The translations under genes and the position numbers were made by a program. Under the pieces are notes generated by a model, which was not told where the DNA came from, ran no database searches, and worked only from the letters and a program-made list of their open reading frames with translations. From assembly GCA_030765065.1 (NCBI GenBank), contig CM060978.1:115177692-115241691 (forward strand): a stretch of DNA of 64,000 bases, given 5' to 3'. This DNA comes from Deroplatys truncata. Taxonomy: Eukaryota > Arthropoda > Insecta > Mantodea > Mantidae. Shown here piece by piece: positions 4,095 to 64,000 of this stretch (positions are counted from its first letter, which is position 1; each line of letters opens with the position of its first letter).

Positions 4095-5110
4095 CGGCAT
4101 TTCACATCTTATAGTAATACCATACATTTTGAAACTGTTCAGCTCGTAAAAGGAATAGGAATAGCAGGCATGGGCATACTAGTAGCAAAACTTTCGACTA
4201 TTCTTGTAACGTGTACATTTTCGGGAGAATTTCCGTTAATAAGCTGTTTGCTAACATGGATATAAATAAAACGCGTACGTGTTTTTGTTTCAACCGTCTA
4301 GATGCGCAACCCAGATCACCAAACGCATTGGCGTATTTTACACTGGACACAGCTAGTACGCTCAGAAGTCTCATAAAGAAAGGATTGGACTGGATTAAAC
4401 TTTTATATCCTCAGGCTTTTCTGCAACGTATTACTTCCTGACGAATGTAGCTACCTGAGGCATCAACTGTAATAATGGAGGATCGTCGTTGCAAATAAGA
4501 AGCTTGGGTTGCTTTTTGAATTATTTATTACTACTAATCCCTAGAGCAATTGTTTTCACTTGAAATAAAGCTTTTCCGCTCGACCTGTTTGGTCTGCGGA
4601 GGTATTTGATTTATCTCCTGTCTCTCATGTCTGAGAGACATTCCCCTTTTCTCCAGCGGGGAAGTGCCCTCTAGAGTTACAGGGTCCCTCGAGGGAGTCA
4701 TTCATAAAAGGAAGGGGAGATGAGTGAAGGGGCTTTAGAAGAGTTACGGCAATGAGTGCTTCTGGTTATGTATGAATCATACTTGAAAACTATTTAGTAG
4801 GCGTTAAAACAATTAACGTATTATGTGTGTGTGTATATATATATATATAAATATGCATGCATATGTTTCATTAAAAAGAAAATTATAATAATATGCGATT
4901 ACAGAATTTGTGGTAAAATCAATAAATATATATCTTGGAAAGATCATGCTCTACGCAATAAAATGTATGTGTAACCAAAGCGGAGAGTGGGGAAATTTGT
5001 TTCAGAGGAAAGTGGAATAACAAAGCGACTTAGACAAAGATATGTAGGTATAGCAGCACGTTATAGCTGTTTTCGGCATTGCAACTACCTTATAACTTAA
5101 ATACACTGTC
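4095..5110. other. unassigned stretch with a TG/TA microsatellite
   Basis: No gene or transposon end recognised. A mixed (TG)n(TA)n microsatellite lies at about 4824-4850. Confidence 0.5.
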
Positions 5111-36487: not shown

Positions 36488-36778
36488 TTGTCCTCCGTGG
36501 TGTAGTGGCTACCATGGTAGCCTCTAGTTCCCGAGGTCGCGGGTTCAAATCCGGCAGAGGACGATGAATTTTTTCGGGCGTAAAAATCCTTAGCATGGGT
36601 TCCTTCAGAAGGGAAGTAAAGCTGGTGGTTCCGTGTTGTAGATTTATGGCATGTAAAAGAACCTGATAGAGAGGCCTCTGAGCAAAATTATTGCTCTTTC
36701 ATGCCCAATGTAGAATGGTACGCTAAGAACCCAGCAGTTAAAGAGCATGAATAAATAAAACTCAATTTAATTTAATTT
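36488..36778 (+). repeat. tRNA-derived SINE with ATTTA-type tail
   Basis: The head has a good box A (tggtgtagtggctaccatgg) and box B (gcgggttcaaatccggcaga) spaced as in a tRNA. The body contains gttgtagatttatggcatgt aaaagaacctg (36641-36671), a core shared with the SINE at 37933-38163. The tail is aataaataaaactcaattta atttaattt. It ends in the type of A/T-rich repeat used for LINE-assisted priming. TSD not certain. Confidence 0.8.
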
Positions 36779-36956
36779 GTCAACTGCATCTATCAGAAGC
36801 AATCTGCACAGCATCTACCACAGACAAACAGAGTAGCAGCAGCCCCAAAGACTTATATAACAGTAGGTGTCCTCGAGATGGAGAAGGACTGCGTTAACGG
36901 TTATGGGCCAAACTTGTCCGAGGTCGCACGTCGGACAAGATAAACACAGATAAATA

Positions 36957-37174
36957 GACACAGGAGTTCTCTCGAATGGCATAAACGCCAGAAGTGCTGT
37001 TAACAGATAACCAGAATCTTCTGGAACTTTCCCTTCCCTTGCCTCCAGAACATTCTGGAATGTTAATAGACACAGGACTTCTCTTGAATGGCATAAACAC
37101 CAGAAGTGCTATTAACAGATAACCAGAATCTTCTGGAACTTTCCCTTCCCCTTGCCTTCAGAACATTCTGGAAT
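36957..37174 (+). repeat. tandem duplication of a ~109-bp unit carrying heat-shock elements
   Basis: Two copies of tagacacaggaRttctctYg aatggcataaacRccagaag ... agaacattctggaatgtt lie next to each other (about 36957-37065 and 37066-37174). They differ at a handful of positions and by one added C. Each holds two arrays of inverted GAA/TTC units described in the promoter entry. Confidence 0.9.
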
Positions 37175-37240
37175 GTTCTGTACATATTTCCAATGGTTAT
37201 ATAAGCAAGCGCTCTCCCAAGTTAGTAAGTGAATGAGTTT
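37014..37240 (+). promoter_or_regulatory. heat-shock promoter (four HSE arrays plus TATA box)
   Basis: Heat-shock factor binds alternating inverted units GAAnnTTC. Here 37014-37031 and 37126-37143 both read GAAnnTTCnnGAAnnTTC without a mismatch. 37161-37178 (gaacattctggaatgttc) is another perfect four-unit array, and 37048-37065 is the same with one base off in the last unit. A TATATAAG box at 37198-37205 follows the last array by 20 bases, the spacing seen in insect hsp70-type promoters. Initiation would fall near 37228-37238. No chaperone ORF follows within the next kilobase, so the transcript is unknown; see findings. Confidence 0.7.
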
Positions 37241-37932
37241 CTGGTGCGACAAAAACTGCTGTTCTCCAAGCAAGTTTGTGACATGCAGTGAGTGCTGCTA
37301 CTGCAAGAGACTGAAGAGATCTTGTGTTCGATTCTCCAGGGAGTAAAGTGGAGCTAAGAAGAGGCTACATCATACATATTTCATTACATCGCTTTCACAA
37401 AGAGTGTGAAGTGACAGTGAGAAACTGAGTGAAATTTGAAATAGATCACATTAGTGAAGTGACAATGAGAGCTTAGTGAGCCGACAGTGACAATTGGACA
37501 AACTCACGATATTATTTAAATGATGAAAGAACAAGAGAAGGTTCTGAGAAAAGAATATTAACAAATGCTAAGTGCATATTCATGGATGCAATTTGTTTGA
37601 AATCAATAGAAATTTAGTCCGCAAAAAAATACTTTTATATATTTCTGCTGAGCAACAAATGAGGTTACGGCTTGAAACCAATACTTGTTCTTCACCATGC
37701 CATAATTACAAAACAATAATAAATATGATGCTAAGTTTAAATATAAAATCATTGAAACTTGCACACAACAAAGCAAATAATTAAATTATGGAATATGAGT
37801 TGAAGTACTTGTACTGCTCTGCTTACCAAATTACTGACAGGAATGTTTAGAGGACTTATTGTTCCCATTTTTGGCTACTGGTCTTCCTCTTCTTCTTCTC
37901 CTCTGGGTATCTGTAGCATCATTGGTGTGGGG
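37230..37932 (+). other. putative transcript leader downstream of the heat-shock promoter; no ORF recognised
   Basis: Downstream of the TATA box the sequence is rich in gtgagtg/agtgaa-type words (37420-37500: gtgaagtgacagtgagaaac, gtgaagtgacaatgagagc) and has stops in all frames. The longest open stretch, at 37572-37784 (70 codons), matches nothing I know. It could be a non-coding heat-shock RNA, a 5' leader with a distant exon, or a dead promoter. Confidence 0.3.
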
Positions 37933-38163
37933 ATGTGTCTGGGTGGCTCAACTGGTTAGGCACTGGCCTTCTGATCCCAAGGTTGCAGGTTCAAATCCGG
38001 CCCAGACCAATGGTTTTTAAGTGTGCTTAAAAGTGACAGCCCCATGTTAGTAGATTTACTGGCATGTAAAAGAACTCCTGCGAGACAAAATCTAGGCACA
38101 CTGGTGGTGCTGAAATGACCCTGGCAATTGACAGCATCGTTAACAAAAAAAACAATTTTTTTA
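37933..38163 (+). repeat. tRNA-derived SINE with 12-bp TSD
   Basis: The head has box A (gggtggctcaactggttagg) and box B (gcaggttcaaatccggcccaga). The body holds gttagtagatttactggcat gtaaaagaact, related to the core in the 36.5-kb SINE, and the tail is A/T-rich. Perfect 12-bp direct repeats attggtgtgggg at 37921-37932 and 38164-38175 are the TSD, so this is a fairly young insertion. Confidence 0.9.
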
Positions 38164-38507: not shown

Positions 38508-38550
38508 ACTTAACATGTTTTGGGAAACGGTTGTTCCCATCCTCAGAAGT
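38508..38550 (-). ncRNA. hammerhead-like ribozyme motif at the 3' end of PLE copy 1
   Basis: On the minus strand, starting on the last base of the TAA stop, a 43-nt motif reads: stem I ACTT, core CTGAGGA, stem II TGGGAACAACCGTTTCCC, core AAAAC, loop AT, GT then T (position 17), and stem I AAGT. Stem I pairs perfectly; stem III is just two pairs, as known for PLE ribozymes. The expected GAAA is AAAA here, which replaces G12, a catalytic base, so this copy is predicted weak or dead. Confidence 0.6.
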
Positions 38551-40865
38551 TAATTCGACTGGCCCGTGTTGTTGGTGTTTCCGTTTTTTGGACTGGATCC
38601 TGTGGTGGCATCTTGTGGTGGAGAAATGTACTTCCAGAGAGGATTTGGTGGCGGCAAATCAAAATTAATTAGATGTGTGTTGTGTTTTAGAATGGTGATC
38701 TTCTCCCATGCATCTAATTCGGCTGCAAATTTGGCTGGTTTGACTAATGTAATATTGGGTTTGATGTTGTGATTAGTGATCCAAAAATGGTGTGAAACTG
38801 CAGATTTGTCCATTTGTTTGTATTTAATACATCTCATGTGCTCCTTTAGCCTAGTTTCTAGGTTTCTTTTTGTCTTACCTATGTATACTTTATTGCAATC
38901 TGAACGATTGATTTTATAGATTCCAGCTTTTTTGTCTTGTGGAATGGGGTCTTTTAACTTGTTACAAAGTAATTTCTCTATGTTAAATTTGTTCTGTGGA
39001 GCTAGGCTGATGTTATGTTTCATGAAAATCTTCTTAAATTTGTGAAATGTTCCTGGGTGGTATGTGAATTTCTTGAACTTTAGCTCTTTATCTTGCTGGC
39101 TGAGATTTGTTGTGTTTCTGATGTGCATCTGTCGTTTGAATTTTGCAATTTTTTTGTCAATAGTTGCTTTGTTGTACCCATTATGTATTGCTGTGTCTAC
39201 TATATGCTGGTATTCTTTTTTATTTAAGGGGGTATATACCAGTCTATGTGTTAGGCTGTTTAGTACTGCATGTTTGTGTGTGGTTGGATTGAAACTGTTA
39301 TTTTTTATGTAATTAGTAGAGTGTGTTGGCTTCCTGTATATGCCAAAGGTTAGGTTCTTTTGTTCTCTGATGATTTTTAGGTCTAAAAATGGTAGCATGC
39401 CTTCTTTTTCTATTTCTATGGTGAATTTTATTGATTGGTTCTGTAGGTTTAGTAAGGCTAAGGAGTCTTGTATGAACCTGTTAGGGACAACAGCGAAGAT
39501 GTCGTCAACATATCTGTGCCAAACTTTAAACATGTATGGAAAGGAAGTTGTTATGTGTGTTTCTAAGTAGCTCATAAATAAATCTGCCAAGAAGGGTGAA
39601 AGTGGTTTGCCCATGGTTAGACCAGTTGGTTGTTGATAGAACTTCTTCTTGAAGCTAAAACAATTTTGTGCAATGCATAAATTGGTAAGTTGTATGAGGT
39701 CTTCTATTTCTTCTTCAAGTAGGTTAGTCTGCTGTAGCCATTTCTTTAATTGACGCAGGAGTTGATCTGTAGGGACACTTGGAAATAGTGCAGTGACATC
39801 AAAGGAAACTAATCTGTCTTCTGGTTCGAGTTCCAGGGATTTTATCTTCTGTATTAAATCTTCTGAATTCATTATGTTTTTGCTATTGAATTTTGGTAGT
39901 GAAGAGAATCTCTGTACTAACCATTTTGCCAGTTTGTAGGTAGGAGAATCAATATTACTGACGATTGGTCTCATCTTATTACCCGGTTTGTGTATTTTAG
40001 GTAGAGCATACATTCTTGGTAAAGTGGGGTGGTCTGGTTTTAATCTAGATTTATCAGTGTCTGTTATAGTTTTGCTTTCCTGGATGGTTTGATTGAAGGC
40101 TTTTAAATGTAATTTTAATGGGTCTTCTTGAATTTGTATGTAATTTTCTTGTTGCAGCATATTTTCTACTCCGGCAATATAATCATCTTTTTGCAGTACA
40201 ACTAGTTTATTTCCCTTGTCAGCTTTTGTGTATACTACTGGTTTTGATTTTAATGTTTTGATCACATGTTTGGTTGGGAAATTGTTATGTTTATCTGCTT
40301 GTATTTCTTGGAGAACCATTTCACATTCTTTTTTTATAGTGGTTTTACTATTTTCATTTAGGTTGTAAGTAGCAATCTCAATGTCTGCGACTATTTCATC
40401 GGTTGTTTTTGTGTAGCCAACACATGTTTTTAGGCCAAGGTTTAATACCGATAATTCCGCTTTGGTGAAAGTTACATTTGAAAGATTAATTACGTCTGGG
40501 TATGACGTCGTTTTTTCATTTTTTAGGTTAGGTTTATATGAATGTTGCTTCCAGTGTAGTATGTCTAGTTTTTTCTTTAATTTCAGCGTTTTTGTTTTCA
40601 TCCTGTAGCTAAGAATAGTGAGGAATTTTGTTTGCATGTTTTGCCAAAGTGGGTAGCCGAGTGTGTCCGTTAATTTAAGGTGAAGAGCATATAATTCCAT
40701 TTCCAATTTTTGTAATTTTGCATAGTGGTTGTTTCTCTCAATTATTATTACTTTTTTATCGGCTGATGTTTGGTGTTTGCTGTTTTTGTCATATTTTACA
40801 ATTCTCCTTACAAACTTTGGTGTGACTTTGCTTTGTATGCATAGGTTTAAAAAACGGATGTCCAC
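38550..40865 (-). CDS. Penelope-like reverse transcriptase / GIY-YIG endonuclease (PLE copy 1)
   Basis: Open for 771 codons from a GTG. The frame stays open upstream to about 40944 (NFKDFSGIKSDIKRYQKVEE), so the true start was probably ATG beyond the 5' truncation; GTG is only a computed start. The protein copies element RNA at the target and cuts DNA. RT motifs: A, FDVTALFPSVP (about residue 355); B, GLTMGKPLSP (about 415-424, Lys where copies 2 and 3 have Asn); C, YVDD (about 452). The GIY-YIG domain starts near residue 646 (KAGIYKIN...KVYIGKTKRNLETRLKEH), followed by SHHFW and ELDAWEK. The first Cys of the CxxC knuckle is Arg (NRSDC, against NCSDC in the 62-kb copy). No stop or frameshift interrupts the gene. 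Confidence 0.9.
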   Translation of the reverse strand: MDIRFLNLCIQSKVTPKFVRRIVKYDKNSKHQTSADKKVIIIERNNHYAKLQKLEMELYALHLKLTDTLGYPLWQNMQTKFLTILSYRMKTKTLKLKKKLDILHWKQHSYKPNLKNEKTTSYPDVINLSNVTFTKAELSVLNLGLKTCVGYTKTTDEIVADIEIATYNLNENSKTTIKKECEMVLQEIQADKHNNFPTKHVIKTLKSKPVVYTKADKGNKLVVLQKDDYIAGVENMLQQENYIQIQEDPLKLHLKAFNQTIQESKTITDTDKSRLKPDHPTLPRMYALPKIHKPGNKMRPIVSNIDSPTYKLAKWLVQRFSSLPKFNSKNIMNSEDLIQKIKSLELEPEDRLVSFDVTALFPSVPTDQLLRQLKKWLQQTNLLEEEIEDLIQLTNLCIAQNCFSFKKKFYQQPTGLTMGKPLSPFLADLFMSYLETHITTSFPYMFKVWHRYVDDIFAVVPNRFIQDSLALLNLQNQSIKFTIEIEKEGMLPFLDLKIIREQKNLTFGIYRKPTHSTNYIKNNSFNPTTHKHAVLNSLTHRLVYTPLNKKEYQHIVDTAIHNGYNKATIDKKIAKFKRQMHIRNTTNLSQQDKELKFKKFTYHPGTFHKFKKIFMKHNISLAPQNKFNIEKLLCNKLKDPIPQDKKAGIYKINRSDCNKVYIGKTKRNLETRLKEHMRCIKYKQMDKSAVSHHFWITNHNIKPNITLVKPAKFAAELDAWEKITILKHNTHLINFDLPPPNPLWKYISPPQDATTGSSPKNGNTNNTGQSN

Positions 40866-40945
40866 AAATGTGTTTTTTCTCTTTTCTTCAACTTTTTGGT
40901 ATCTTTTGATGTCACTTTTTATTCCACTGAAATCTTTGAAATTGA

Positions 40946-42882
40946 AGCGGAAGTATCGGTATTAAACCTTGGCCTAAAAACATGTGTTGGCTACACAAAA
41001 ACAACCGATGAAATAGTCGCAGACATTGAGATTGCACTTACAACCTAAATGAAAATAGTAAAACCACTATAAAAAAAAGAATGTGAAATGGTTCTCCAAG
41101 AAATACAAGCAGATAAACATAACAATTTCCCAACCAAACATGTGATCAAAACATTAAAATCAAAACCAGTAGTATACACAAAAGCTGACAAGGGAAATAA
41201 ACTAGTTGTACTGCAAAAAGATGATTATATTGCCAGAGTAGAAAATATGCTGCAACAAGAAAATTACATACAAATTCAAGAAGACCCATTAAAATTACAT
41301 TTAAAAGCCTTCAATCAAACCATCCAGGAAAGCAAAACTATAACAGACACTGATAAATCTAGATTAAAACCAGACCACCCCACTTTACCAAGAATGTATG
41401 CTCTACCTAAAATACACAAACCGGGTAATAAGAGGAGACCAATCGTCAGTAATATTGATTCTCCTACCTACAAACTGGCAAAATGGTTAGTACAGAGATT
41501 CTCTTCACTACCAAAATTCAATAGCAAAAACATAATGAATTCAGAAGATTTAATACAGAAGATAAAATCCCTGGAACTCGAACCAGAAGACAGATTAGTT
41601 TCCTTTGATGTCACTGCACTATTTCCAAGTGTCCCTACAGATCAACTCCTGCGTCAATTAAAGAAATGGCTACAGCAGACTAACCTACTTGAAGAAGAAA
41701 TAGAAGACCTCATACAACTTACCAATTTATGCATTGCACAAAATTGTTTTAGCTTCAAGAAGAAGTTCTATCAACAACCAACTGGTCTAACCATGGGCAA
41801 CCCACTTTCACCCTTCTTGGCAGATTTATTTATGAGCTACTTAGAAACACACATAACAACTTCCTTTCCATACATGTTTAAAGTTTGGCACAGATATGTT
41901 GACGACATCTTCGCTGTTGTCCCTAATAGGTTCATACAAGACTCCTTAGCCTTACTAAACCTACAGAACCAATCAATAAAATTCACCATAGAAATAGAAA
42001 AAGAAGGCATGCTACCATTTTTAGACCTAAAAATCATCAGAGAACAAAAGAACCTAACCTTTGGCATATACAGGAAGCCAACACACTCTACTAATTACAT
42101 AAAAAATAACAGTTTCAATCCAACCACACACAAACATGCAGTACTAAACAGCCTAACACATAGACTGGTATATACCCCCTTAAATAAAAAAGAATACCAG
42201 CATATAGTAGACACAGCAATACATAATGGGTACAACAAAGCAACTATTGACAAAAAAATTGCAAAATTCAAACGACAGATGCACATCAGAAACACAACAA
42301 ATCTCAGCCAGCAAGATAAAGAGCTAAAGTTCAAGAAATTCACATACCACCCAGGAACATTTCACAAATTTAAGAAGATTTTCATGAAACATAACATCAG
42401 CCTAGCTCCACAGAACAAATTTAACATAGAGAAATTACTTTGTAATAAGTTAAAAGACCCCATTCCACAAGACAAAAAAGCTGGAATCTATAAAATCAAT
42501 CGTTCAGATTGCAATAAAGTATACATAGGTAAGACAAAAAGAAACCTAGAAACTAGGCTAAAGGAGCACATGAGATGTATTAAATACAAACAAATGGACA
42601 AATCTGCAGTTTCACACCATTTTTGGATCACTAATCACAACATCAAACCCAATATTACATTAGTCAAACCAGCCAAATTTGCAGCCGAATTAGATGCATG
42701 GGAGAAGATCACCATTCTAAAACACAACACACATCTAATGAATTTTGATTTGCCGCCACCAAATCCTCTCTGGAAGTACATTTCTCCACCACAAGATGCC
42801 ACCACAACCGTTTCCCAAAACATGTTAAGTGAGTAAACTTAAGTGATGTTAGTGTAACAATTCCGACTCACCTTTAAATAAA
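40946..42882 (+). mobile_element. Penelope-like element copy 2, 5'-truncated
   Basis: Sequence equivalent to copy 1 begins at gcggaagtatcggtattaaa, about 20 codons before the VGYTKTTDE segment, so roughly the first 140 codons are missing. Early in the frame (about 41034 and 41073-41080) a one-base loss and a one-base gain flank an 18-codon out-of-frame segment with a stop. Beyond it the gene is open. At its 3' end, 69 bases present in copy 1 are gone. Confidence 0.88.
41088..42836 (+). CDS. Penelope-like RT / GIY-YIG protein (PLE copy 2, N-terminally truncated)
   Basis: 582 codons from an internal Met corresponding to about residue 183 of copy 1. RT motif A FDVTALFPSVP is near residue 172, B GLTMGNPLSP near 233-242, and C YVDD at 270-273. 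GIY-YIG starts near residue 464, again with Arg in place of the first knuckle Cys. Differences from copy 1 include IARVEN for IAGVEN, GNKRRP for GNKMRP and MGNPLSP for MGKPLSP. The C-terminus is abnormal: an in-frame 69-bp deletion removes the last native residues and stop, so the frame reads through TVSQNMLSE, the last residues coming from ribozyme-side sequence. Without its N-terminus the protein is unlikely to work. Confidence 0.85.
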   Translation: MVLQEIQADKHNNFPTKHVIKTLKSKPVVYTKADKGNKLVVLQKDDYIARVENMLQQENYIQIQEDPLKLHLKAFNQTIQESKTITDTDKSRLKPDHPTLPRMYALPKIHKPGNKRRPIVSNIDSPTYKLAKWLVQRFSSLPKFNSKNIMNSEDLIQKIKSLELEPEDRLVSFDVTALFPSVPTDQLLRQLKKWLQQTNLLEEEIEDLIQLTNLCIAQNCFSFKKKFYQQPTGLTMGNPLSPFLADLFMSYLETHITTSFPYMFKVWHRYVDDIFAVVPNRFIQDSLALLNLQNQSIKFTIEIEKEGMLPFLDLKIIREQKNLTFGIYRKPTHSTNYIKNNSFNPTTHKHAVLNSLTHRLVYTPLNKKEYQHIVDTAIHNGYNKATIDKKIAKFKRQMHIRNTTNLSQQDKELKFKKFTYHPGTFHKFKKIFMKHNISLAPQNKFNIEKLLCNKLKDPIPQDKKAGIYKINRSDCNKVYIGKTKRNLETRLKEHMRCIKYKQMDKSAVSHHFWITNHNIKPNITLVKPAKFAAELDAWEKITILKHNTHLMNFDLPPPNPLWKYISPPQDATTTVSQNMLSE

Positions 42883-52697: not shown

Positions 52698-53205
52698 CTA
52701 ACAGATAATAGCTCTATCTACAGTTATTTCCACTGGTGAATTTGTTATACTGGAATGATGGTGTTGATGCCGTGATCTTGGTGTTTTGTGGATATGGCAA
52801 CACTGACTGCCACATTGTGCACATGAAAGACATGAGGCTACTGGGTAATGTGTTGGAGAGTTTTTAGGCCGTTTGTTTACTGGCAATTCTTCGCTATCGT
52901 CACTATGTGCATGATGGTTTCCTTCTGCTGTTTTTGTTTCATTCCCATCATCCTTCTTTCTTGAGCAGCTTATACCATTTTCTAAACTATGGGATGATTT
53001 AATTCCATTTGCTCTACTAGCCTCCAGGATGTGACTAGGAAGGTCTGTGATTACAACTGATGTCTTTACGCCATCAGTTTCCTCTTGTCCTACTGAGCTA
53101 GCTCCAGTAGAAGAAAGAACTAACTCCTTGCTAGAAGGGGTTAAAGCACATGAAGATCCTGATAACCAAGGATGCTCCAAACATTGTTGGGAAGTAAGAC
53201 GGTTA
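52698..53205 (-). CDS. Drak: DRAK/STK17-type serine/threonine kinase, last coding exon
   Basis: The exon follows a consensus acceptor (gtgtgtttcag, ending 53206) and completes a codon split 2/1 with the exon at 61353. It gives ...DPSNRLTSQQCLEHPWLSGS S, the end of a protein kinase domain (subdomain XI, with the invariant Arg and the HPWL of DAPK/CaMK-group kinases). A 150-residue tail follows, rich in Ser/Glu/Lys in the middle (GEEKTxx-like, SRKKDDGNETKTAEG), then a Cys/His cluster SCLSCAQCGSQCCHIH, a basic-His patch RSRHQHHHSS and the end DRAIIC. The stop is TAG at 52698-52700. The kinase assignment is firm; DRAK rests mostly on the upstream exon. Confidence 0.85.
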
Positions 53206-54489
53206 CTGAAACACACAACATGTACAAAATGTCATAAGATAACAGTTATTTCTGAAACCAGAGAAAATATTTCTCAACTATGTTTATGCTAATGGCAATT
53301 TTCCTTAAATCTAACTTGAGATGGTGAATGAAATGAATGCTTATATGGACCTAGAGCTTACAGAGACGAGAATTGCCTGATATTTCTTTTCTCAGGATAA
53401 GAAAGAATACTGGAATAATACTTATAAATATAACACACCCAAATTGATATTGAAACTCAGGCTCTTCGGATTAGATGGCAAACATGATAATTTCAACCAC
53501 TGAGGCAGACAACTGATGTGACCATAAATAAGTCAAGAAATAAATGCATAGCATAAATCTGTCATTAATTTAACTGAAGAAGAGAATGGACTAGTTATGG
53601 CCTAACACTGACATATTGTGTCTGTTCTTGTAAATGGGCAATATGTATTGGAACCAGCTATCAGCTTCAATCCTTGACAAGTCAAACTGACAGCATGGCC
53701 ACAATGCTGATTGGGAAATCATTATTTAAAGTGATCACATGTCTAATAGTTCCATAGTTAACATGTTTCCTTTAGGCTAGTTTTTCAGTGTGAGTTAATA
53801 TAGTTGAATTCAGGTATTCTATTCCACATGGGTATATGTTTATGATCATACATGCATATGAAGTAAGCTCGAGTTAAATAGATTAATTTCAGGAGAGATT
53901 CTTATATATTAAAAATTTCTTCCAAAATGTGATTCATATATTGAATAATAGAATCCTTGTAACCAGTAGTGTTCAATACAAGAAGCCTACAACTCAGTGC
54001 AATATGTTCAAAGAAACTATACAACAGTAGATATTCTCTGGTATACTCCCCAAAAATGGCTTAGATGTCTTTTATAGCAAATGGGAATTTCCAGTGGCTC
54101 TCGCATTGAAGTTAAAACTGTATAAAAGTATTGTATTTCAAGAACATAAGCTGGGCAGTCCTTCAGCCAGGGTTAGACTCAGTGACTAAATTTGAATTCC
54201 ATGTAGCAGATAAATTCACCTTCATTTCATCTTGTTCACTGTTTCACAAAGAGTACTGTATGATCAAAACAATGGGAGAATGTGCATTATTTGGAAACCA
54301 TTTTGTTTTTAAAAATAAATAGTTTTATAGCCTTTTTTAAACAACAGCAGAATATTCATTGTACAAAAGTCATGAAGTGTTCAATGAAAGAATCATGTTA
54401 ATTTCATAATCATACTTCAGAAATGTAGATAAAAATGGAGGCATATAGCTCCAATTTTCAATATACTATTATAGAATTATATAGAACAT

Positions 54490-56476: not shown

Positions 56477-56666
56477 GTAGGAATAATTTCTCGTGTTTTT
56501 CGTATTTTGGTAATTGTTCACCCTGCTATTTTTTAAAATAATACTGGAGCGCAACTTAAAGTATGCTCTCTTTAGACTTCATCACACATCCAAAATTATA
56601 TAATACTTATTTGCTGGCAGTGGGTATTTAAATTGACTAATTTTGTTGTTTACTTTTAATTTACAG

Positions 56667-58028
56667 GTCCCAGCAGAAAAACGTTCTCACTTGGTGCAAC
56701 ATCGACAATCAGCAACTCATTCTGCAAATGCTGTTAGGAACGAATCTCAAAAGAAGCAGAGTTTCTTAACATCAAAGCCAGGCAGTTCTAATGAAGCCAA
56801 AGCTAACTCATTTAGCATGCATTTATGTGAAGCTTTTACTGCCGCCAGTATACCAATTGCTACACTACAAAACCCAATATTGAAAAACTTTTGCAACTCT
56901 AAAGTACCAGATGAGTCCACCTTAAGAAAGAATGTATTGCCCCAGTTGTATGAGAAAGCTATTGAAGACATAAAGGCAGACATCGCTGACCACAACATTT
57001 GGTTAAATGTGGACGAAACAACGGATGCTTGTGGTAGATATATTGCCGCCATAGTTGTGGGCAAATTCACTTCTGAGGAACCCAGTAAGCCCCATGTCAT
57101 CCTATGCAAGGAGCTTCAACAAACCAACCACTCTACAATATCAATTGCAGTGAGGGATGCTTTAAAGGTCATATGGCCAGATGCAGAAGGAGAGGAAAAA
57201 TTGAGATTGTTAGTGACCGACAGTGCAGCTTACATGTTGAAAGCGGGTGAATGTCTAAAGGCTTTCCATCCTCGTATGCTCCATGTCACCTGTCTTGCAC
57301 ATGGATTCCACCGGGTAGCTGAAAAGATTCGGGAAGAGCATCCTACAGTCAATAAAATAATTTCTTCGGTGAAGAAGGTTTTCTTGAAAACACCAAATCG
57401 AGTGGTGATATTCGGAGAGAAGTATCCTTCGATAGAGCTGCCTCCACAGCCTGTACTGACACGGTGGGGTACATGGCTATCAGCAGCAATGTATTATGCG
57501 GAAAACTACACAAGCATCGTAGAGGTAATTGATTCATTAAATGAACTTGATGCAGCCGCCGTTGTAAAGGCAAAGAAAGCATTGCACTCAGCAGCAGCAG
57601 TACAGGAGTTGAGCTATATCAAAGCAAATTGCTTCCACTTTGAAACTGCAATAAAAAAATTGGAAGAATCATCTCTCCCCATGACGGAAGCATTGCAAGT
57701 CATAGAGGAGGTAAGAAACAAAGTGGTACCTGGACCAAGTGGAGAATCTATAAAAAATAAGTTAGAAGTTGTTTTGGTGCGCAGTCCAGATTTCAAGGTC
57801 GTAGCAAAAATTGGCCGCGTTCTCTGTGGAGAAAAAGTGCAGGGATCACTGAGTTGGAATCCTAAGGAAATAGCCGAGATGAAGTTCGCACCTCTTATCT
57901 CGTGTGTAGTGGAATGCAGTTTCTCCGCTTTCAAGCACATTTTAACAGAAGAAGGGGGTTTACACCTCACAATCTTTCCAAGTACTTCATTGTTCAGTGC
58001 CATACTAGGAGTGCAAAATGAGTACTGA
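56667..58028 (+). CDS. hAT transposase exon 2 (RNase H-like catalytic domain)
   Basis: Begins after ttacag with VPAEKRSHLVQHRQSATH, completing the BED finger. With exon 1 it makes about 490 residues. Catalytic elements: first Asp in NVDETTDACG (about 57005), second Asp in LVTDSAAYM (about 57215), the HVTCLAHGFHRV block (about 57283), TRWGTWLSA (about 57460), and Glu in CVVECSFSAFKHIL (about 57905). The last 24 residues are off frame: after HILT the encoded sequence is EEGGLHLT..., whereas a neighbouring frame reads RRGFTPHNLSKYFIVQCH, the usual hAT ending. One lost base near 57950 explains this. The rest is uninterrupted. Confidence 0.85.
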   Translation, partial: VPAEKRSHLVQHRQSATHSANAVRNESQKKQSFLTSKPGSSNEAKANSFSMHLCEAFTAASIPIATLQNPILKNFCNSKVPDESTLRKNVLPQLYEKAIEDIKADIADHNIWLNVDETTDACGRYIAAIVVGKFTSEEPSKPHVILCKELQQTNHSTISIAVRDALKVIWPDAEGEEKLRLLVTDSAAYMLKAGECLKAFHPRMLHVTCLAHGFHRVAEKIREEHPTVNKIISSVKKVFLKTPNRVVIFGEKYPSIELPPQPVLTRWGTWLSAAMYYAENYTSIVEVIDSLNELDAAAVVKAKKALHSAAAVQELSYIKANCFHFETAIKKLEESSLPMTEALQVIEEVRNKVVPGPSGESIKNKLEVVLVRSPDFKVVAKIGRVLCGEKVQGSLSWNPKEIAEMKFAPLISCVVECSFSAFKHILTEEGGLHLTIFPSTSLFSAILGVQNEY

Positions 58029-62067: not shown

Positions 62068-64000
62068 TTAATTCAACTGGCCCGTGTTGTTGGTGTTTCC
62101 GTTTTTTGGACTGGATACTGTGGTGGCATCTTGTGGTGGAGAAATGTACTTCCAGAGAGGATTTGGTGGCGGCAAATCAAAATTAATTAGATGTGTGTTG
62201 TGTTTTAGAATGGTGATCTTCTCCCATGCATCTAATTCGGCTGCAAATTTGGCTGGTTTGACTAATGTAATATTGGGTTTGATGTTGTGATTAGTGATCC
62301 AAAAATGGTGTGAAACTGCAGATTTGTCCATTTGTTTGTATTTAATACAGCTCATGTGCTCCTTTAGCCTAGTTTCTAGGTTTCTTTTTGTCTTACCTAT
62401 GTATACTTTATTGCAATCTGAACAATTGATTTTATAGATTCCAGCTTTTTTGTCTTGTGGAATGGGGTCTTTTAACTTGTTACAAAGTAATTTCTCTATG
62501 TTAAATTTGTTCTGTGGAGCTAGGCTGATGTTATGTTTCATGAAAATCTTCTTAAATTTGTGAAAAGTTCCTGGGTGGTATGTGAATTTCTTGAACTTTA
62601 GCTCTTTATCTTGCTGGCTGAGATTTGTTGTGTTTCTGATGTGCATCTGTCATTTGAATTTTGCAATTTTTTTGTCAATAGTTGTTTTGTTGTACCCATT
62701 ATGTATTGCTGTGTCTACTATATGCTGGTATTCTAACTGGTATTCTTTTTTATTTAAGGGGGTATATACCAGTCTATGTGTTAGGCTGTTTAGTACTGCA
62801 TGTTTGTGTGTGGTTGGATTGAAACTCTTATTTTTTATGTAATTAGTAGAGTGTGTTGGCTTCCTGTATATGCCAAAGGTTAGGTTCTTTTGTTCTCTGA
62901 TGATTTTTAGGTCTAAAAATGGTAGCATGCCTTCTTTTACTATTTCTATGGTGAATTTTATTGATTGGTTCTGTAGGTTTAGTAAGGCTAAGGAGTCTTG
63001 TATGAACCTGTTAGGGACAACAGCGAAGATGTCGTCAACATATCTGTGCCAAACTTTAAACATGTATGGAAAGGAAGTTGTTATGTGTGTTTCTAAGTAG
63101 CTCATAAATAAATCTGCCAAGAAGGGTGAAAGTGGGTTGCCCATGGTTAGACCAGTTGGTTGTTGATAGAACTTCTTATTGAAACTAAAACAATTTTGTG
63201 CAATGCATAAATTGGTAAGTTGTATGAGGTCTTCTATTTCTTCTTCAAGTAGGTTAGTCTGCTGTAGCCATTTCTTTAATTGACGCAGGAGTTGATCTGT
63301 AGGAACACTTGGAAATAGTGCAGTGACATCAAAGGAAACTAATCTGTCTTCTGGTTCGAGTTCCAGGGATTTTATCTTCTGTATTAAATCTTCTGAATTC
63401 ATTATGTTTTTGCTATTGAATTTTGGTAGTGAAGAGAATCTCTGTACTAACCATTTTGCCAGTTTGTAGGTAGGAGAATCAATATTGCTGACGATTGGTC
63501 TCATCTTATTACCCGGTTTGTGTATTTTAGGTAGAGCATACATTCTTGGTAAAGTGGGGTGATCTGGTTTTAATCTAGATTTATCAGTGTCTGTTATAGT
63601 TTTGCTTTCCTGGATGGTTTGATTGAAGGCTTTTAAATGTAATTTTAATGGGTCTTCTTGAATTTGTATGTAATTTTCTTGTTGCAGCATATTTTCTACT
63701 CTGGCAATATAATCATCTTTTTGCAGTACAACTAGTTTATTTCCCTTGTCAGCTTTTGTGTATACTACTGGTTTTGATTTTAATGTTTTGATCACATGTT
63801 TGGTTGGGAAATTGTTATGTTTATCTGCTTGTATTTCTTGGAGAACCATTTCACATTCTTTTTTTATAGTGGTTTTACTATTTTCATTTAGGTTGTAAGT
63901 AGCAATCTCAATGTCTGCGACTATTTCATCGGTTGTTTTTGTGTAGCCAACACATGTTTTTAGGCCAAGGTTTAATACCGATAATTCTGCTTTGGTGAAA
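62068..64000 (-). pseudogene. Penelope-like RT / GIY-YIG gene, copy 3, one nonsense codon, 5' end outside
   Basis: The frame is open from the window edge through VLQEIQADKHN, RT motifs FDVTALFPSVP, GLTMGNPLSP and YVDD, to a TGA at 62647-62649 where copies 1 and 2 have CGA (KFKRQMH becomes KFK-stop), a CpG-type change. It then continues to the native end NTGQLN. A 12-bp duplication adds QLEY inside KKEYQ (about 62730-62742). The GIY-YIG domain keeps the Cys pair NCSDC that copies 1 and 2 have lost. The apparent start at 63849 is an internal Met. Confidence 0.9.

Follow-up and report, generated by a model that had tools for sequence, protein, structure and literature searches.

A heat-shock promoter with no chaperone gene behind it raises the question of what it was built to drive, and such a promoter lies within the stretch of DNA analysed here (the window: 64,000 nucleotides from the mantid Deroplatys truncata). 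Our motif scan agrees with a preliminary description of positions 36957–37932 on the promoter's components: three perfect arrays of four heat-shock element (HSE) units, GAAnnTTCnnGAAnnTTC, are present at 37014–37031, 37126–37143 and 37161–37178 on the + strand and at no other site in the 64 kb, a fourth array at 37048–37065 (+ strand) matches 11 of the 12 core bases, and a TATA box (TATATAAG, 37198–37205, + strand) stands 19 bases past the last array. The odd base of the fourth array falls at the junction between the two repeat units of a tandem duplication. This duplication had been given a period of 109 bp: its existence holds (36953–37177, 2.0 copies, 94% matches), whilst its period as measured is 112 bp, with arrays 1 and 2 carried by the first unit (36953–37064) and arrays 3 and 4 by the second (37065–37177; both units on the + strand), the two halves differing by K=0.046. 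The arrays are not what base composition would provide: across 20 dinucleotide shuffles of the window, perfect arrays had a mean of 0.0 and a maximum of 0 against the 3 observed, and arrays of at least 11/12 a mean of 0.35 and a maximum of 2 against the 7 observed. The lack of an HSP gene was likewise upheld, with the Hsp70 N-terminus reaching a best E of only 4.3 in the window and Pfam at E 0.1 returning no match for the ten pieces scanned out of 29 stop-to-stop pieces in 36.80–37.94 kb; HSP families other than Hsp70 were covered in the window by the scan of these ten pieces only. On the basis of both searches, a remnant of an hsp gene was rejected as a candidate.

The preliminary description had proposed searching the genome for other copies, and this search revealed a dispersed repeat. 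Comparison of 36957–37932 with its own genome (4.29 Gb, 818 contigs) gave at least 39 scored matches besides itself among 5,723 first-look candidates, spread over many contigs at 71–76% identity and confined to 37.06–37.52 kb of the window; the counts from this and the other genome searches are lower bounds. In order to delimit the repeat, 20 loci were compared with ~4–5 kb on each side: the centre of a ~0.5-kb unit is common to 17–19 of the 19 others, and outside this unit and its second copies there are only stretches common to at most ~10 other loci, which look like unrelated common repeats. Since the 0.5-kb centre recurs across otherwise different loci, the apparent orphan promoter is part of a dispersed repeat. 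The 20 and 22 copies studied here and below were those scoring highest against the window copy and do not constitute a random sample.

The anatomy of the unit is that of a long terminal repeat (LTR). Boundary fitting, with three copies as 5' templates and with several weak fits at the 5' and 3' ends, placed a TG at the start of 19 of 23 copies (TGTGA in 11) and a CA at the end of 16 of 23 (TCACA in 14). Five of the 23 copies have one side inside the element, and the other 18 were used to look for target duplications: a 4-bp duplication (ATAT or CTAT) agrees at all four bases in L009, L013 and L027 (the 3' end of L027 being weakly fitted) and at three of four in L016, L017, L024 and L028, whilst ATAT begins the 3' flank in 9 of the 23. 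The LTR is followed by the primer-site-like sequence TGGTGT in L021 and L022 and by a decayed form of it in L012; the corresponding tRNA is presumably that for Leu. A purine tract lies directly 5' of the LTR in L012, L019 and the related loci L035, L036 and L038, and two LTRs stand in direct orientation in L012 (76.7% identical, K 0.249) and L021 (79.8%, K 0.247). The hallmarks of an LTR retrotransposon were thus found among members of the family, namely TG...CA ends, a duplication of fixed 4-bp length, a primer-site-like sequence, a purine tract before the LTR and paired direct LTRs, and with a K of about 0.25 between paired LTRs the family is old. A DNA transposon or MITE was also considered: the inverted repeat ATATTGTGA...TCACAATAT consists of the LTR ends plus the AT-rich target duplication, and this candidate was rejected because the primer-site-like sequence, and not ATAT, follows the LTR in L012, L021 and L022.

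The LTR of the window copy extends over 36890–37508 on the + strand by boundary fit (~620 bp including the 112-bp duplication). It is longer than the other copies (452–555 bp, n=22, same fit) because of the duplication, which none of these 22 copies possesses; the duplication is young, private to the window copy among the copies compared and much younger than the LTR itself, and it has doubled the number of arrays, with those at 37126–37143 and 37161–37178 being the equivalents of the family elements HSE1 and HSE2. The decayed 5' end, which starts in TG, could be placed by a weak fit only (18 of 100), and the 3' end reads TCACG, equivalent to the TCACA of the family. Homology across the family continues through the part downstream of the TATA box (37206–37508, + strand), which by its position would be R/U5-like, and the LTR is followed by an ATATT flank (37509–37513, + strand) resembling the ATAT found after other copies. 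This flank has no matching 5' duplicate, and the window copy shows 0 of 4 bases of a target duplication. A single LTR is visible in the window, and integrase, RT and RNase H gave no match within it when pieces of the related locus L035 were used as queries; the copy is apparently solo. A purine-rich stretch, GATGGAGAAGG, does immediately precede the fitted start, so that the window copy could instead represent the 3' LTR of an element whose polypurine tract has decayed.

The nature of the parent element can be read from sister copies. Integrase remnants homologous to the integrase of L035 are present in 3 of 20 loci (L021, L012 and L019; E 2e-32 to 2e-20), where they stand between or beside the LTRs, whilst a single piece each of the RT and the RNase H of L035, used as queries, matched 0 of the 20 family loci. 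Pieces of L035, searched apart, match Pfam RVT_1, RT_RNaseH and Integrase_H2C2, and they lie in the order RT, RNase H, integrase, the order that distinguishes Ty3/gypsy elements, followed by the purine tract and then by an LTR with a 12/12 HSE array. Integrase-like sequence also accompanies an LTR with an 11/12 array in L038; in the LTR of L036 no array of at least 10/12 was found. As L035, L036 and L038 were retrieved with an integrase query, their LTRs were not chosen for HSEs. We therefore assign the element to the Ty3/gypsy type, an assignment in which the pol evidence comes from the related subfamily and the window's own subfamily contributes integrase remnants only. This own subfamily is represented only by decayed copies: no intact member was found among the loci examined, and Pfam recognised no pol domain in six decayed gag/integrase pieces. 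Gag-like coiled-coil pieces were observed near the integrase remnants of L021 (4432–8187), L012 and L019, again with no RT or RNase H match, and these three loci possibly represent a common internally deleted, non-autonomous form. Repeat sharing, LTR anatomy and the integrase of sister copies together bear out one of the candidates named in the preliminary description, that of a promoter carried by a mobile element.

Are the HSEs a property of the family or of the window copy? In 21 of 22 copies, the best array within a promoter segment of 200 bp scores 11/12 or higher, a level reached by 3 of 2,200 shuffles and by 3 of 110 windows from the flanks. Because these 22 copies had been retrieved with a query that itself contains HSEs, the test was repeated with an HSE-free query (window 37212–37508): of 20 copies, the first of 24 absent from the original match set, 15 carry an array of at least 11/12 within ~290 bp (against 4 of 2,000 shuffles), one scores 10 and four score only 8. 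One of the 20 (C11:109182686) had turned up in an earlier search, and two others, L047 and L048, whose HSE sites are nearly the same, may represent a single duplication. The HSEs are a family trait, and the four or more adjacent nGAAn units that characterise the LTR promoter of the plant retrotransposon ONSEN are found here too. The same signal is visible genome-wide, where perfect 4-unit HSEs number at least 7,219 against 652 for a reversed control pattern (the HSE pattern is palindromic, so that the same 7,219 sites match on both strands). A perfect array with a TATA box at 14–26 bases occurs at no fewer than 743 places (control: 2), the family HSE1 motif with at most one mismatch at 4,106 or more (control: 1), and two arrays close together at 709 or more (365+344; control: 2), some loci in the last count being included on both strands. 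Among the first 50 distinct perfect arrays listed, motif or pairing linked 29 to the LTRs. Inspection by eye of the array-plus-TATA and paired-array listings distinguished at least three promoter variants, which suggests that the HSE design is common to several related LTR subfamilies; in three loci of one variant, the HSE/TATA part and other stretches match the window copy or L022 at 67–77% identity.

Conservation within the LTR is less telling. Mean pairwise identity is 0.84 and 0.81 in the HSE core columns and 0.87 in the TATA box, compared with 0.72 in the rest of the LTR, and the HSE core columns rank 10 and 31 of 398 placements of equal spacing, with several other LTR blocks kept as well. 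As the HSE columns are only moderately better kept, sequence comparison does not prove selection on HSF binding. HSE1 is perfect in 9 of 23 copies and HSE2 in 4 of 23, both being perfect in the window copy, L011 and L020, whilst the expected chance of an intact 12-base core is ~0.135 at the mean K of 0.345 between copies; this comparison is no clean test, since the copies are those most like the window's.

Taken together, 36890–37508 is very probably an ancient LTR, apparently a solo one, from a Ty3/gypsy-type family whose U3 carries two adjacent 4-unit HSE arrays just upstream of a TATA box, and from this layout we infer HSF binding and heat induction. The element would have recruited host HSF to its LTR, much as ONSEN did in Arabidopsis: while the family was active, host HSF trimers may have bound the arrays, and the element would have been transcribed, and hence copied, mainly under heat or proteotoxic stress. 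Recombination between LTRs, together with decay, could then have scattered HSE-bearing LTRs over the genome, and the window copy would afterwards have duplicated its own promoter segment to reach four arrays. We rather doubt that heat still induces this copy to start a short non-coding transcript on the + strand; judged by the position of the TATA box, such a transcript would begin near 37228, and its end could follow an AATAAA at 37718, which makes a length of ~0.5 kb conceivable.

An origin from the heat-shock genes themselves has to be weighed against this, either with the promoter or a fragment of a lost hsp gene having subsequently multiplied as a repeat, or with an LTR having captured an hsp70 promoter. 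The layout does resemble that of hsp70, since HSE units followed by a nearby TATA box are seen in three of five hsp70 promoters, and TTCTGGAACTTTC is common to the window and two of them. However, these five promoters, taken from 5 of 14 hsp70-like matches (721 bp each, all five matches having long open frames of 541–644 codons), share with the LTRs nothing alignable that is longer than HSE-sized words (best E 0.078), and the LTR promoter was thus not visibly taken from these five hsp70-like genes. Their best 4-unit scores are 10, 10, 10, 11 and <10 of 12: a perfect 4-unit array is absent from all five, and by this score the LTR arrays rank as the stronger. For the five promoters tested, an hsp origin appears largely refuted, and the decayed duplicate of a known hsp promoter against which the preliminary description had cautioned was not borne out; overall we consider such an origin very improbable. 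Still further from the evidence is a heat-shock non-coding RNA gene like hsr-omega, which is a single-locus gene with tandem repeats bearing the nonamer ATAGGTAGG. A strong HSE promoter with no recognised ORF would suit such a gene, as had been suggested for this locus, but the promoter belongs to a dispersed family, the nonamer is absent from the window and no tandem array is listed between 37178 and 46037, leaving this reading with next to no probability.

The remaining alternatives accept the LTR and differ over its present role. That all present copies are silenced and irrelevant to the heat-shock response, the arrays having worked only in the ancestral element, has an appreciable chance of being correct, although it is not the reading that we favour: the high age indicated by the LTR pairs and the mostly single or truncated state of the copies examined speak for it, and animal genomes commonly silence such element copies. 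Against it stand the persistence of perfect arrays with a TATA box in numbers far above the control, both counts being lower bounds, and the binding of HSF-1 to such sites after heat in worm Helitrons (PMC6927752). At the other extreme, the window copy may be an exapted host regulatory element, its HSE promoter having been kept and duplicated for a useful heat-induced non-coding or fused transcript. Three of its four arrays are perfect despite the divergence between copies, the duplication that doubled them is recent and absent from the 22 other copies, and the AATAAA would allow the transcript of ~0.5 kb; yet other copies have equally intact arrays, the halves of the duplication differ at too few sites for a test of constraint, and the only downstream ORFs of at least 120 codons on the + strand are those of a Penelope-like element and a DUF659 ORF. 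We regard exaptation of this copy as improbable. A broader proposal, that a Ty3/gypsy lineage became in effect a heat-shock gene and that its leftover LTRs are now the genome's chief reserve of strong HSF sites, exceeding the HSEs of hsp70 in both number and rank and forming a dispersed regulon, with the window copy and its young fourfold array as one functioning stress promoter, is in our view unlikely.

HSE-bearing or heat-inducible transposons are already known from plants, fungi, worms and, weakly, from Drosophila copia. The closest parallel is ONSEN (ATCOPIA78), whose LTR holds a heat-responsive element of the strong '4P' type, with four nGAAn units side by side; bound by a heat-shock factor, such 4-unit elements render ONSEN inducible by heat (PMC3907296, PMC5059998). 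ONSEN has eight full-length copies in A. thaliana, with HSFA2 binding and heat induction demonstrated (PMC3907296, PMC5059998), whilst its 16 fragments and solo LTRs there keep no functional element (PMC5059998). It is, however, a Ty1/copia element of plants, whereas the window family is of Ty3/gypsy type, with two 4-unit arrays and many old copies. In Caenorhabditis, Helitrons likewise furnish a large share of the HSEs of a genome, amounting to 61.4% of those in C. elegans with a 3-unit motif (PMC6927752); these are DNA transposons with HSF-1 binding seen by ChIP (PMC6927752), whereas the window family consists of LTR retrotransposons whose HSEs sit where the element's own promoter would be. 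The Cryptococcus elements TCN3 and TCN12 also have putative HSEs in their LTRs, and TCN3 is Ty3/gypsy (PMC12810828), but they are fungal, their heat-dependent mobilisation has been observed and they carry two putative HSEs (TCN3) or one (TCN12), not paired 4-unit arrays (PMC12810828). Amongst animal LTR elements, Drosophila copia was reported to be heat-responsive with a heat-shock consensus but is of copia type (Strand and McDonald 1985, as cited in PMC3907296), and the Cer elements of C. elegans are heat-inducible once nuclear RNAi is lost, although the term 'HSF' is absent from the main text of that paper (PMC4714518). The open-access literature searched, where sources were available in part, yielded no LTR family of animals in which 4-unit HSE arrays are paired. 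The family described here is notable for the number, age and strength of its HSEs and looks like an animal Ty3/gypsy counterpart of ONSEN: a large, old LTR family with the strongest HSE class in its promoters. If HSF still binds these LTRs, heat shock would light up a network derived from retrotransposons, making it possible to ask directly if transposons rewire the heat-shock response or absorb it; should every copy be silent, the family still documents a time when a retrotransposon lived off the stress response of its host.

Several further features lie around the LTR in the window. Two related repeats with tRNA-like heads (GGTTCAAATCC box) flank it in the same orientation (36490–36720 and 37936–38130), are 74% identical over 53 bp and appear SINE-like, whilst Rfam and ARAGORN found nothing in the window and no tRNA was called. 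The Penelope-like pair that had been placed downstream is present, with elements from 38.5 kb on: at 38550–42836, an ORF of 771 codons on the − strand, which contains RVT_1 and, slightly below the cut-off, a GIY-YIG match, adjoins an oppositely oriented partner (41088–42836), and a further Penelope-like copy occupies the right end of the window (62068–63999). These elements look like insertions separate from the LTR, and a link between the two was discarded, as they lie beyond the tRNA-like repeat and have no tested feature in common with it. An ORF on the − strand (52698–53216) has no Pfam match and looks like the end of a DAPK/Drak-type kinase; given this kinase-like appearance, a host gene may be situated upstream of the LTR. 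The DUF659 ORF (Pfam; 56643–58028, 461 codons) is presumably hAT-transposase-like.

Two further loci contain multiplied forms of the LTR. In L029, a 3-kb unit is repeated in tandem at 98.6–99.2% identity, each unit having an HSE-LTR near an exon that we take to be filamin-type; the locus had been considered as a full-length element and is instead a recent tandem segmental duplication of 3 kb that multiplies HSE-LTRs. At C7:241627776–241628665 of the same assembly (G000), the 3' part of one LTR (query 195–287 of 297) is present in several extra tandem copies.
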